This document shows, one piece after another, positions 57,054 to 62,000 of a DNA stretch of 64,000 nucleotides. The translations under genes were made by a program, and so were the position numbers. The stretch's first letter is position 1. Each line of letters begins with the position of its first letter. The notes below the pieces were generated by a model. The model saw nothing but the letters and a program-made list of their open reading frames with translations, had not been told where the DNA came from and did not search any database. Origin of the DNA: Candidatus Corynebacterium intestinavium (lineage in GTDB: Bacteria > Actinomycetota > Actinomycetes > Mycobacteriales > Mycobacteriaceae); NCBI GenBank assembly GCA_019120635.1, contig DWUR01000098.1, positions 1-64,000 of the forward strand. Direction: 5' to 3'.

Positions 57054-57722
57054 CTAGTTCTGTTTCCGGGAGTCCACCATGTACTGCAGTCCAGTCACCA
57101 CGGTGACCGCGACAGCCAGGGCCATGACCCCGTGCCCGATCCAGGCGACCGCACCTGCCAACGGCATGATGTACAACGCGACGGCAAGCGTCTGCAGGAC
57201 GGTTTTAAGCTTCCCACCCTTGGACGCCGGGACCACCAGGCCGCGCCGGGCGAGGACCAACCGCCACAGGGTGATGCCGAGTTCGCGGACGACGATGACC
57301 GCGGTCACCGTCCACCACAGTTCACCCAGCAAGTTGAGGCTGATGAAGGCCGCAAGCATCAGCAGTTTGTCGGCGATCGGATCGGCAAGCTTTCCGAAGT
57401 CCGTGATCACCTTGTACTTGCGCGCGAGGTACCCGTCCAGCTGGTCGGTCACCATCAGCAGCAAGAAGACGACGAGCGCCCACCAACGGTCCGCCCGAGC
57501 GGCGGCGTCGTCCTGCCATGCCCCTGTTCCCGCGATCGCCCACAGGAAGATGGGGATCAGCAGGATGCGAATGGTCGTGAGGACGTTCGGCACGTTAAAG
57601 CGACGCACAAAACGACCAAATGCGCTCAGCGTATCTGGTTGCGTGTTCCGCTCCACTGTTGTCTCCACGCTGGTAATTCTACCTACCTGCGGGATCTTTA
57701 CCGAAACCGGCGTCGTCGGCAT
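57054..57722 (-). CDS. pgsA: CDP-diacylglycerol-glycerol-3-phosphate 3-phosphatidyltransferase
   Basis: CDP-alcohol phosphatidyltransferase motif TDQLDGYLARKYKVITDFGKLADPIADKLL. Start may be 57669 (GTG). Confidence 0.93.
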   Translation of the reverse strand: MPTTPVSVKIPQVGRITSVETTVERNTQPDTLSAFGRFVRRFNVPNVLTTIRILLIPIFLWAIAGTGAWQDDAAARADRWWALVVFLLLMVTDQLDGYLARKYKVITDFGKLADPIADKLLMLAAFISLNLLGELWWTVTAVIVVRELGITLWRLVLARRGLVVPASKGGKLKTVLQTLAVALYIMPLAGAVAWIGHGVMALAVAVTVVTGLQYMVDSRKQN

Positions 57723-58794
57723 GTGTCGGTGCTGGTTCCTCGGTCGCCGCGTCCTGCCTCTCCTGGGCCTTCTTCCCCACCGTGAGGCTCAGCACCGTCG
57801 TGATGACCAGCGTCAGGACGATGAAGATCAGGGAGAATTCGACCGACACCTCCGGGACGGAGACGTTGCCCCCACCATTGATGAACGGCAGGTTATTTTC
57901 GTGCAGCGCGTGCAGCACTAGCTTCACGCCGATGAAGGCGAGAATGATGGACAGCCCGTAGGAAAGGTAGACCAGCTTCTCCAGCAGCCCATCCAGCAGG
58001 AAGAACAGCTGTCGCAGCCCCATCAGAGCCAGTGCATTGGCGGTGAAGACAATGTAGGGCTCGCTGGTGATGCCGTAGATCGCGGGGATCGAATCCAGTG
58101 CGAAGAGCACGTCGATGAAGCCGATGGCCAGCAGCGCGACAAACAGCGGGGTCACCATGAGGCGCCCCTTGCCGGAAGGCTTCTTCTTTCCTTCGACGTC
58201 GTCGGTCGCGCCGTCCTGCCGAACGAAGAGGCGGTCCGAGTGCACCTTGTCCGTCACCGGCACTGCCTTGCGCAGGAGCCGGATGATCTTCATGTCGTTA
58301 AGGTCGGTCTCATCGGCGCCGGTGACCTCGTCGTAGGCCAGCTTCGCGGCGGTCCACAGCAGGAAGATGCCGAAGAGATAGAACACATCGGACCAGCGGG
58401 CGATCGCAGCCGCGCCGAGCCAGATGAAGATACCACGCAGAGCAAGTGCCATGAGGATGCCGGCGAGCAGCACCTTCTGCTGGTACTTCCGCGGAATCTT
58501 AAACGTGGCCAGGATCAGCGAGAAGATGAATAGGTTATCGACGCTGAGCGCCTTCTCGGTGATGTAGCCGGCGAAGAACTCCAGCCCGTGCTGGTGAGGG
58601 TTGCCCGGCTCGCCCCAGGTGAACCACAGGAACACCCCGAACGCCATCGCCAGACCGACATAAAACGCCGACCAGAGTGCGGACTCCTTCAACGTCGGCT
58701 CGTGCGGTGTGCGCACGTGCGTAAAAAAATCGAAAACAAAGAATCCGAGCACCACGACAATCGTGATGATCCAGGTTAAGGCGTTAACTTCCAT
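57679..58794 (-). CDS. TerC family integral membrane protein (Alx/TerC-like, probable Mn2+ exporter)
   Basis: FFAGYITEKALSVDNLFIFSLI, FIDVLFALDSIPAIYGITSEPYIVFTANALALMGLRQLFFLL. Confidence 0.94.
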   Translation of the reverse strand: MEVNALTWIITIVVVLGFFVFDFFTHVRTPHEPTLKESALWSAFYVGLAMAFGVFLWFTWGEPGNPHQHGLEFFAGYITEKALSVDNLFIFSLILATFKIPRKYQQKVLLAGILMALALRGIFIWLGAAAIARWSDVFYLFGIFLLWTAAKLAYDEVTGADETDLNDMKIIRLLRKAVPVTDKVHSDRLFVRQDGATDDVEGKKKPSGKGRLMVTPLFVALLAIGFIDVLFALDSIPAIYGITSEPYIVFTANALALMGLRQLFFLLDGLLEKLVYLSYGLSIILAFIGVKLVLHALHENNLPFINGGGNVSVPEVSVEFSLIFIVLTLVITTVLSLTVGKKAQERQDAATEEPAPTHADDAGFGKDPAGR

Positions 58795-58827
58795 TGGTCC
58801 CTCCGGCCCTTCAAGCGTGTTCAGTGA

Positions 58828-58985
58828 CCGGAGGTCTCCCCCGCCAGGTGCAACGCGACCTGACCGGAGTGGCCGGGTGAGCGCCGCGCCGGCAGGATTG
58901 AGGCCTGCTCGCCGCCGCTCCGCCGTGTTGACGACCGACTCCGTGGATTGGGGTACTCCCCTCCATCGGGAGCAATGCTACACCA
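58828..58985 (-). ncRNA. yybP-ykoY (Mn2+) riboswitch upstream of terC-family gene
   Basis: Minus strand GGGGAGTACC (58961-58952), GGTCGTCAACAC (58936-58925), GGGGGAGACC (58842-58833), then CCTCCGG that can pair with SD-containing CCGGAGG (58806-58800) before ATG 58794. Confidence 0.82.
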
Positions 58986-59036: not shown

Positions 59037-62000
59037 TTAGAAAGCCCCCGAGGGCGGGCTGGCGGGAATGACGCGCGTCTGGGTGTCGTCATCGCCATCG
59101 CTGCCCGCCGAATTTTCGCCGGACGCCGCCGACGGTGCCGCATCGTCGGAGTCCTCCGCACCGCCGTCCTCATCGAGCACATCCTTCGGGGCTTCCTCTG
59201 GGTCGGCGCCCTTAATCATCCAGATGATGGTCTCGAGCTCCTCCGGCTTGACCAGCACCTCACGTGCCTTCGAGCCCTCGGAGGGGCCCACCACTCCGCG
59301 GGTCTCCATCAGGTCCATGAGGCGGCCGGCCTTGGCGAAACCGATGCGCAGCTTGCGCTGCAGCATGGACGTCGAACCGAACTGCGACGTCACGACCAGC
59401 TCGACGGCCTGGATGAGGTCCTCGAGGTCGTCGCCGATGTCGGCGTCGATGTTCTTCTTCGCCTCGGCGGACTTATCCTCGGTGACGCCCTCCGTGTAGT
59501 CCGGCTCAGCCTGCGCCTTAGCGGCCTCGACGACAGCGAAGATCTCCTCGTCGGTGACGAAAGCTCCCTGCATGCGAATCGGGCGGGGAGCACCCTGCGG
59601 GATGAACAGCCCGTCGCCCATGCCGATGAGCTTCTCGGCGCCTGCCTGATCGAGGATCACGCGGGAGTCGGTCAGCGAGCTCGTCGCGAAGGCCAGCCGG
59701 GATGGCACGTTCGTCTTGATCAGACCCGTGACGACGTCCACGGACGGGCGTTGGGTCGCCAGCACCAGGTGGATGCCGGCGGCTCGTGCCTTCTGGGTGA
59801 TGCGGACGATGGCGTCCTCAATCTCGCGCGGGGCGGTCATCATGAGGTCAGCGAGCTCGTCCACCACACAGACGATGTACGGGTACGGGCGGTATTCGCG
59901 CTCCGAGCCCAACGGGGTGGTGATCTCCCCGGACCTGACCTTGCGGTTGAAGTCCTTGATGTGACGCACGCGGGTGGCCTTCATATCCATGTACCGCTGC
60001 TCCATCTCCTCCACCAGCCAGGTCAGCGCGGCGGCCGCCTTCTTCGGCTGGGTGATGATCGGGGTGATGAGGTGCGGGATGCCCTCGTATGGAGTCAGCT
60101 CCACCATCTTCGGGTCGATGAGGATGAGGCGGACATCCTCTGGCGTGGCGCGGGTGAGCAGGGAGACCAGCATCGAATTCACGAACGCGGACTTACCGGA
60201 GCCGGTGGAACCGGCAACCAGCAGGTGTGGCATCTTCTGCAAGGAGTGCCCCACGAAGTCGCCCTCGATGTTCTTGCCCAGGCCGATGAGCATCGGGTCC
60301 TGGTTGGCCACGACGTCCGCGGAGCCCAGCACGTCGCCGAGGCGCACCATCTCGCGGTCGGAGTTCGGCACCTCGATGCCGACGGCGGACTTGCCCGGGA
60401 TCGGGGTCAGCAGCCGGACGTTATCCGTGGCCACCGCGTAGGCGAGGTTGGACTGCAGATTCGTGATCTTGGAGACCTTCACGCCGGGGCCCAGCTCGAT
60501 CTCGTAGCGGGTGACCGTCGGGCCTCGCTGGAAACCGGTGACGTGGGCGTCGACGTTGAATTCCTCGAAGACCTCCGTGATCGCGTCGATCATCCGGTCG
60601 TTGGCGTCGCTGCGCTCCTTCGCCGGCTCGCCCGGGATCAGCAGTTCGGTGGACGGCAGGACGTAGCTGCCCTCTGCCCCCTGCGGTGCGGCTGGGGACG
60701 AGGAAGCCTCCGACGCGGTGGCGCCCCCGTTCTCGCTCTGCCCCTCGGCCGTGCCCGCAGCCAGTGCGGCGGCGTCGATGCCGGAGCGAGCGACGATAGC
60801 CTGGCGCATGGCCTCGCGGGACTGGTTGACAGCCTTGTCTCCTGCCGCGCGCTCTTCGGCGTGGCTCCGCCCGGCAGCGGGCTCAGTCTGCGGAGATTCC
60901 TGGCGCGCCGCGGGGATCGCGGAACGCTGTTGGGCACGGGCAGGCTTGCGGCGCGGCGTGTCCTCCTCCGGGCTAGCAGCGACATCGAGCACCGCGGTCT
61001 CATCCGTATCGGAGACCAGTGGTAGTGGTTCATCGATGTCGTCGGGGACGACTGGCTCGGGCTGCCGTGTCGCGGCGGCTCGCGGCGCCGGGGCGCTGCG
61101 GCGGCGGGCGCGTCGGGCAGGTTGCGCGGGCTCCTCCTCCACCGGGTAGTTGGCCGCCGGGGACTTCTTCCGGCTGCGGGTTGGCAGGGGGTAATCGTCC
61201 TGATCCACGGCCTCATCGAGGCGCTGGTCGATTTCCCCGTAGGGGTCGTCGTCGTAGTCCTCTTCCGAATCCCGGGAGAAGCGTTCGCGCAGCGCGTCGA
61301 ACGCGCCCTCGAGTCCCAGCCAGGAAACGGATCCGGCGAAGAATTCGGCGACCGTGCGGCCGGTGAGCTGCAGGGCACCGTAAATCATGATGAGGAACAG
61401 CAGCGGAACGGCAACGTAATTGCTAAAGCCCACGGACATCGGCGTGCCGATGAACTGTCCGACTATGCCGCCCGCTCCAGCCTTGTCCGCGGTGCTGGTA
61501 GGCAAACCGGCGAAGATGTGGATGATCCCCAGCAGGGACCCGGCGACAAGCCCCACGCCGAGGCCGCGGCGCAGGTCGGAGCTCTGCGTCGTGCGAACTC
61601 CGAACATCAGGATCCAGGCAAGCCCCAACAGGGCGACCGGGACGATGTACGCCCCCACACCGATAGCCCAGGTCAGCGCGTAGGCGATGCCTTTGCCGAC
61701 CGCACCAGCAACGTTAAACCACAGGGTGGCGGCGAGAATGATCGCAACACCGCCACTGACGAGCGCCGGGCCGTCGAAGCCGCCGCCGATCTTGCGTGGC
61801 CCCTCCTCGAGCTCATCGCCGTCAAGCTGCGTGTCCTCGACTGGCGCCACCTCCTTCGCCGCTGGCTTCTTGCGTCTGGGACGCCGCGGCTGGGTGCCGT
61901 CTTCGTTCTGCTGAGAGGCCAAACCTTCTACTTTCTTCTTCGACGTGCGGGCTTGTGGTCGGTGCGCGGCGAATTCGACTGTGTCTGCGTCTTCGCTCTC

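Follow-up and report, generated by a model that had tools for sequence, protein, structure and literature searches.

The terC leader of a Corynebacterium very probably holds an alx-type yybP-ykoY Mn2+ riboswitch that acts on translation

Two leaders of E. coli, those of alx and mntP, have been reported as Mn2+ riboswitches, and reporters for both respond to Mn2+ (PMC9603457). In crystal structures of the L. lactis and Xanthomonas oryzae aptamers, the metal is contacted via the N7 of an adenosine (A41 and A48, respectively; PMC6754395, PMC9190785). Closer to the present DNA, it is already known that the terC leader of a sister species, C. glutamicum, is annotated as RF00080: the cg2157 leader scored 49.1 bits in an older Rfam, and the gene's 5'-UTR, seen by RNA-seq, starts close to the start of the aptamer (PMC3890552). 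Older Rfam versions also gave an element in C. pseudotuberculosis.

The locus described here lies in a 64-kb stretch of DNA (64,000 nucleotides; hereafter, the window). An initial annotation had read a yybP-ykoY riboswitch upstream of a TerC-family gene; that gene matches PF03741 (E = 1e-47) and is preceded on the minus strand by ftsK (stop at 59037) and followed by pgsA. The nearest named relatives of its protein are from Corynebacterium sp. HMSC27B11 (95%) and a C. urealyticum assembly (92%); judged from sequence, the source genome is that of a Corynebacterium near C. urealyticum. The leader spans 58964-58795 (minus strand) and comprises a yybP-ykoY-type aptamer followed by a hairpin able to mask the Shine-Dalgarno sequence (SD). 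The ATG of terC (58794-58792, minus strand) lies 5 nt 3' of GGAGG; a gene of the metal transport or metalation kind that the class controls stands immediately 3' of the leader. The features of the locus are as follows.

58975-58980, minus strand: TAGCAT, putative -10 element of a promoter belonging to terC itself, from a genus-wide TANNNT comparison; the transcript would begin a few bases 5' of P1.1
58960-58964, minus strand: 5' arm of the P1.1 switch helix, GGAGG; partner 58834-58830, with pairing in 99% of cells across 70 distinct sequences
58954-58959, minus strand: 5' strand of the docking loop L1, GGAGUA; unvaried in 74 of 74 aligned sequences
58950-58953, minus strand: P1.2 5' arm, CCCC; partner 58842-58839
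58938-58943, minus strand: P3.1 5' arm, CGGAGU; partner ACUCCG, 58870-58865
58934-58937, minus strand: bulged C58937, then GGU (58936-58934), partner GCC, 58873-58871
58924-58933, minus strand: L3, CGUCAACACG, containing A58929
58877-58923, minus strand: P3.2 variable arm, long; length and sequence differ freely among relatives
58871-58876, minus strand: CCG and GCC, the L3 3' strand and the top of the P3.1 3' arm; CCGG conserved, closing U-G pair
58865-58870, minus strand: P3.1 3' arm, ACUCCG (covariance-model (CM) alignment, 70 distinct sequences)
58843-58864, minus strand: P4 hairpin, 7 pairs, GUCAGGU/ACCUGGC
58839-58842, minus strand: P1.2 3' arm, GGGG (CM alignment, 70 distinct sequences)
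58835-58838, minus strand: L1 3' strand, GAGA; AGA unvaried, first G in 72 of 74
58826-58834, minus strand: CCUCCGGUC; first 5 nt are the P1.1 3' arm, and the segment serves as anti-SD arm in the alternative state
58800-58808, minus strand: GGCCGGAGG, the arm of the OFF hairpin that carries the SD GGAGG
57679-58794, minus strand: terC, 371-aa TerC family membrane protein (PF03741, 162.5 bits)

The signature motifs of the class occur on the minus strand where they had first been read (GGGGAGTA at 58961-58954, GTCGTCAACAC within 58935-58925 and GGGGAGACC within 58842-58833), as do the three segments proposed to pair (CCTCCGG, 58834-58828; GGAGG, 58964-58960; CCGGAGG, 58806-58800). At the P1 junction, the L1 sequence GGGGAGUA (58961-58954) faces its partner GAGACC (58838-58833), and both are unvaried in relatives; the docking role of L1 is taken from PMC6754395, with A58957 as the equivalent of the A-minor residue A10 of L. 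lactis. L3 contains UCAACAC (58931-58925), which conforms to the pattern UCA-N-N-A/U-C considered against ligands in PMC9190785 and PMC6754395. Of the aligned sequences, 72 have letters at this place; the UCA and final AC of UCANNAC are unvaried in all of them, and so is A58929, which corresponds to the Mn2+-contacting A41 of L. lactis and A48 of Xanthomonas. The P2 helix is absent from the window, where merely 6 unpaired nt separate P1.2 from P3.1. We do not treat P2 as a defining feature of the class, because the alx leader is without it and its presence varies within the genus: Corynebacterium loci L051-L059 carry a hairpin at the place of P2, between P1.2 and P3.1.

Does this arrangement recur before other terC genes? 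In a first set of 57 TerC loci from the genus and family, the series GGAGUA ... CGUCA(A/G)(C/U)ACG ... GAGACC precedes the start codon at 55; the two loci without it are L013 and L019. Sixteen compact leaders of relatives, the window's clade left out, were aligned over helices P1.1, P1.2, P3.1, P3.2 and P4 (alignment A1). The covariation score of this alignment was 0.424 vs. 0.191 +/- 0.018 after shuffling, and it was at most 0.197 when the partner was slid by 1-3 columns. A covariance model made from A1 (R1), again without the window's clade, matched the window at 58964-58830 (minus strand; 59.3 bits, E = 1.2e-13), E. coli alx (48.3 bits, E = 1e-10) and, weakly, E. coli mntP (23.8 bits, E = 4e-4); the calibration of R1 was short, rendering these E-values rough and leaving the bit scores unaffected. 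With the rest of the 64-kb window as the specificity control, the second-best match there reached 15.5 bits. The match to alx makes the element homologous to an accepted member of the class, and the class assignment of the initial annotation is supported by these comparative data, including a model built from relatives that links the window to alx.

R1 was then applied to 82 sources, namely the 80 TerC loci, the window and alx, and matched 74 times. In the 70 distinct aligned sequences, 88.5% of cells are paired and two-sided changes occur at 23 of 28 pairs; these final helix counts come from the CM alignment, which is fitted to the model, and they lean towards the structure. Covariation on the 70 sequences was 0.382 vs. 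0.148 +/- 0.007 for shuffled controls, which leave the relatedness of the sequences in place, and at most 0.10 with the partner slid by 1-3 columns. P3.1 has two-sided changes at eight of its nine pairs (CM alignment of relatives); in P4, 95% of cells are paired and all five modelled pairs change on both sides. P1.2 occurs among relatives as CCCC/GGGG, UCCC/GGGA, UUCC/GGAA and CUCC/GGAG, and compensatory changes are present even among the closest relatives of the window. Covariation thus bears out the helices that bring L1 and L3 together (P1.1, P1.2, P3 and P4). The element is real and above chance, and the comparative evidence supports reading the terC leader as an ordinary member of the yybP-ykoY class.

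The initial annotation had named an RF00080 search as its check, with the lack of a hit as a refutation. Taken literally, that outcome was obtained: in Rfam 15, cmscan gave no match in 3 kb of the terC region (E up to 1), none in 221 b of the leader (E up to 10) and none at the terC loci of 17 relatives. However, RF00080 also gave no match to the E. coli alx leader, and E. coli mntP scored 41.6 bits, below the cut-off of 45. Because these reported Mn2+ riboswitches likewise fail RF00080, its silence is uninformative here; it is a property of the detector that leaves class membership unaffected. The class assignment therefore stands, and RF00080 was dropped as its arbiter on account of the failure with alx. 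A match of RF00080 in the source genome itself (L001, 13.9 bits) was rejected: it consists of an isolated intergenic GGGGAGUAGCC, and neither L3 nor P1 could be seen around it.

The current public model seems to have lost the alx-like subtype. What is new here is the breadth of that form: R1 at E up to 1e-3 had a match in 164 of the 247 Actinomycetes genomes sampled, in none of which RF00080 passes its gathering cut-off, although weak R1 matches include false positives (e.g., L080) and the downstream gene was examined for part of the matches. In a phylum-wide sample of 198 genomes, 42 had a match at E up to 1e-4. Annotation pipelines based on RF00080 would under-report Mn2+ riboswitches in Actinomycetes. 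Five of six downstream proteins scanned with Pfam are TerC; the sixth, at L192, is the start of a 1,586-aa ORF that, from its sequence, reads as a P-type ATPase, a kind of protein whose genes are among the known yybP-ykoY targets. At the mycobacterial loci L085, L104 and L192, the same riboswitch, with the re-paired SD hairpin CCUCCAGCG/CGCUGGAGG, stands before a very long ORF. TerC homologues with no motif or model match upstream also occur (L013, L019, Nocardia L158, L170, L180, L182, L185, L187 and L188); these are possibly paralogues outside riboswitch control. That L080 match (G000:C61:55344, 27.4 bits), a candidate for another riboswitch in the source genome, was rejected, as it is situated inside a 277-aa ORF, methyltransferase-like by eye, and is without L3.

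The initial annotation had also proposed that the 3' segment of the aptamer pairs either in P1 or with the SD, and this layout found support. One strand pairs in the switch helix of the aptamer or with the SD, as in a translational ON switch, and these mutually exclusive pairings occur in all but one of 90 distinct terC leaders: in 89, at least 4 of the 5 nucleotides of the P1.1 3' arm pair with the SD region in the folded segment; the leaders for this count and for the extension analysis were chosen by motif, and the lone exception, L007, has a mis-called start codon. The 5-bp complementarity of CCUCC to the SD could by itself follow from the presence of CCUCC in P1.1; more telling is how the hairpin continues outside CCUCC:GGAGG. 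Of 89 leaders, 86 have at least 3 further contiguous pairs beyond the SD core, and at position 9 of the hairpin pairing was 88% vs. 55% in shuffled controls, with a covariation of 0.830 vs. 0.261 +/- 0.064. In two leaders (L147 and L151), the extension is exchanged on both sides, the complete replacements being CCUCCAGUUUUG/CGAAACUGGAGA and CCUCCACAA with UUGUGGAGG; it is likewise replaced at L085 and L104 (AGCG/CGCU), which are mycobacterial and upstream of a different gene. In the window, the 43-nt SD hairpin has a folding energy of -18.5 kcal/mol (z = -3.1 vs. dinucleotide shuffles). Folding of the full leader without metal gave -91.5 kcal/mol for the OFF state vs. -80.3 kcal/mol for the ON state; this calculated gap of 11 kcal/mol in favor of OFF ignores tertiary contacts and co-transcriptional folding. 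Such a preference would fit an ON state that depends on ligand.

A TANNNT hexamer recurs 16-19 nt 5' of P1.1, with 59 placements at these four offsets among 68 distinct leaders and 5 at the next offset; a generic sigma-70 promoter scan detected nothing. From this recurring -10-like element, the aptamer is probably near the 5' end of the transcript, which would begin within a few bases of the aptamer start, as in C. glutamicum.

The terC leader is, we are confident, very probably an alx-type (P2-less) yybP-ykoY Mn2+ riboswitch that operates as a translational ON switch. The sequence comparisons show its anatomy, conservation, covariation, homology to the alx leader and two mutually exclusive pairings; that Mn2+ is the ligand, which way the switch works and that TerC handles Mn2+ in the source species are inferred. 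At low Mn2+, CCUCCGGUC (58834-58826), which includes the P1.1 3' arm, would pair with GGCCGGAGG (58808-58800); this would hide the SD, and TerC synthesis would stop. At high Mn2+, L1 and L3 would dock around the ion, held by the N7 of A58929 plus phosphates, and docking would stabilize P1.1 (GGAGG, 58964-58960, with CCUCC, 58834-58830). The SD would then be free, and TerC would be made to handle excess Mn2+. The prediction for this locus is that Mn2+ induces terC translation in the source Corynebacterium.

The same aptamer and switch could have as their main output a premature, Rho- or RNase-dependent loss of untranslated mRNA, beyond SD occlusion alone. Rho terminates transcription in the E. 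coli mntP leader, where Mn2+ partly relieves it, and Rho and RNase act on the FMN riboswitch of C. glutamicum (PMC11647493); the lack of an intrinsic terminator in the terC leader is in keeping with such a route. Yet nothing in the leader sequence specifically indicates a rut site, and the loss would be compatible with SD occlusion, which would be its trigger. We consider this output unlikely, though plausible enough to keep in view. Improbable, in our estimation, is a response to alkaline pH, in place of Mn2+ or alongside it, in the manner of the pH-responsive element of E. coli alx: alx is the closest known structure, and the responses of alx and mntP reporters to pH and Mn2+ are additive (PMC9603457), but the intact Mn2+-site residues and unvaried contact adenosine of the window lead one to expect Mn2+ sensing anyway. 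Riboswitches with intrinsic terminators, as in B. subtilis and L. lactis, are common among Firmicutes members of the class (PMC11647493), and control of this type is very improbable here: the terminator scan found nothing resembling an intrinsic terminator from the aptamer to the ATG, the hairpin includes the SD, and 3' of it comes GACCAAUGG rather than a U tract. That G-rich motifs came together by chance in GC-rich DNA, or that the leader is the remains of a decayed element, might be suspected from the silence of RF00080 on the leader and from the 27.4-bit R1 match inside coding sequence, without L3 (L080), but this is refuted by the comparative data (59.3 bits vs. 15.5 for the next match, the unvaried core and the compensatory changes) and can be practically discounted.

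The leader has a further potential pairing: at 58961-58950, GGGG-AGUA-CCCC can form a hairpin of its own that would destroy L1 and P1.2. The P1.2 5' strand is pyrimidine-rich across actinobacterial relatives; that of E. coli alx (ACUU) differs. The sequence could be an OFF-state hairpin, or the pyrimidine pattern could come from a bias in C-to-U change. A broader reading, which we offer tentatively and think doubtful, is that Actinobacteria have in common an alx-like subclass of their own, in most cases lacking P2 and with the SD built into the switch, in which a P1.2 5' strand kept as YYCC would pair with GGGG of L1 to form GGGG-AGUA-YYCC and break the metal pocket in the OFF state. If true, this would be a two-hairpin switch, of which we found no description for the class.

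Among the known systems, the C. glutamicum cg2157 leader comes from the same genus and gene family but another species, and the likeness rests on its description. E. coli mntP is under translational ON control by Mn2+, as terC would be here, and matches R1 weakly; it differs in L3 and the P3 region, and the current Rfam model recognizes it better (41.6 bits). The L. lactis yybP and Xanthomonas oryzae aptamers share with the present leader P1.1 as the switch helix and the residues of L1 and L3, the adenosine at the metal among them; they have a P2 hairpin and a four-way junction and are described as controlling transcription, whereas the present leader has no P2 and an SD output. The E. coli alx leader carries, in the same order as the window, GGGGAGUA, GAUCGUCANNACG, CCGGUC and GAGACC, and it has P1.1, P1.2, P4 and a P3.1 that is likewise bulged after three pairs. 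As read from its sequence, it likewise has no P2, and a TerC gene is downstream. The two leaders differ in P1.2 (ACUU/AAGU in alx vs. CCCC/GGGG in the window) and in the distance from aptamer to gene: the alx leader runs ~80 nt past the aptamer, whereas 35 nt separate P1.1 from the ATG in the window, where, unlike in alx, the P1.1 3' arm is itself the pairing partner of the SD.
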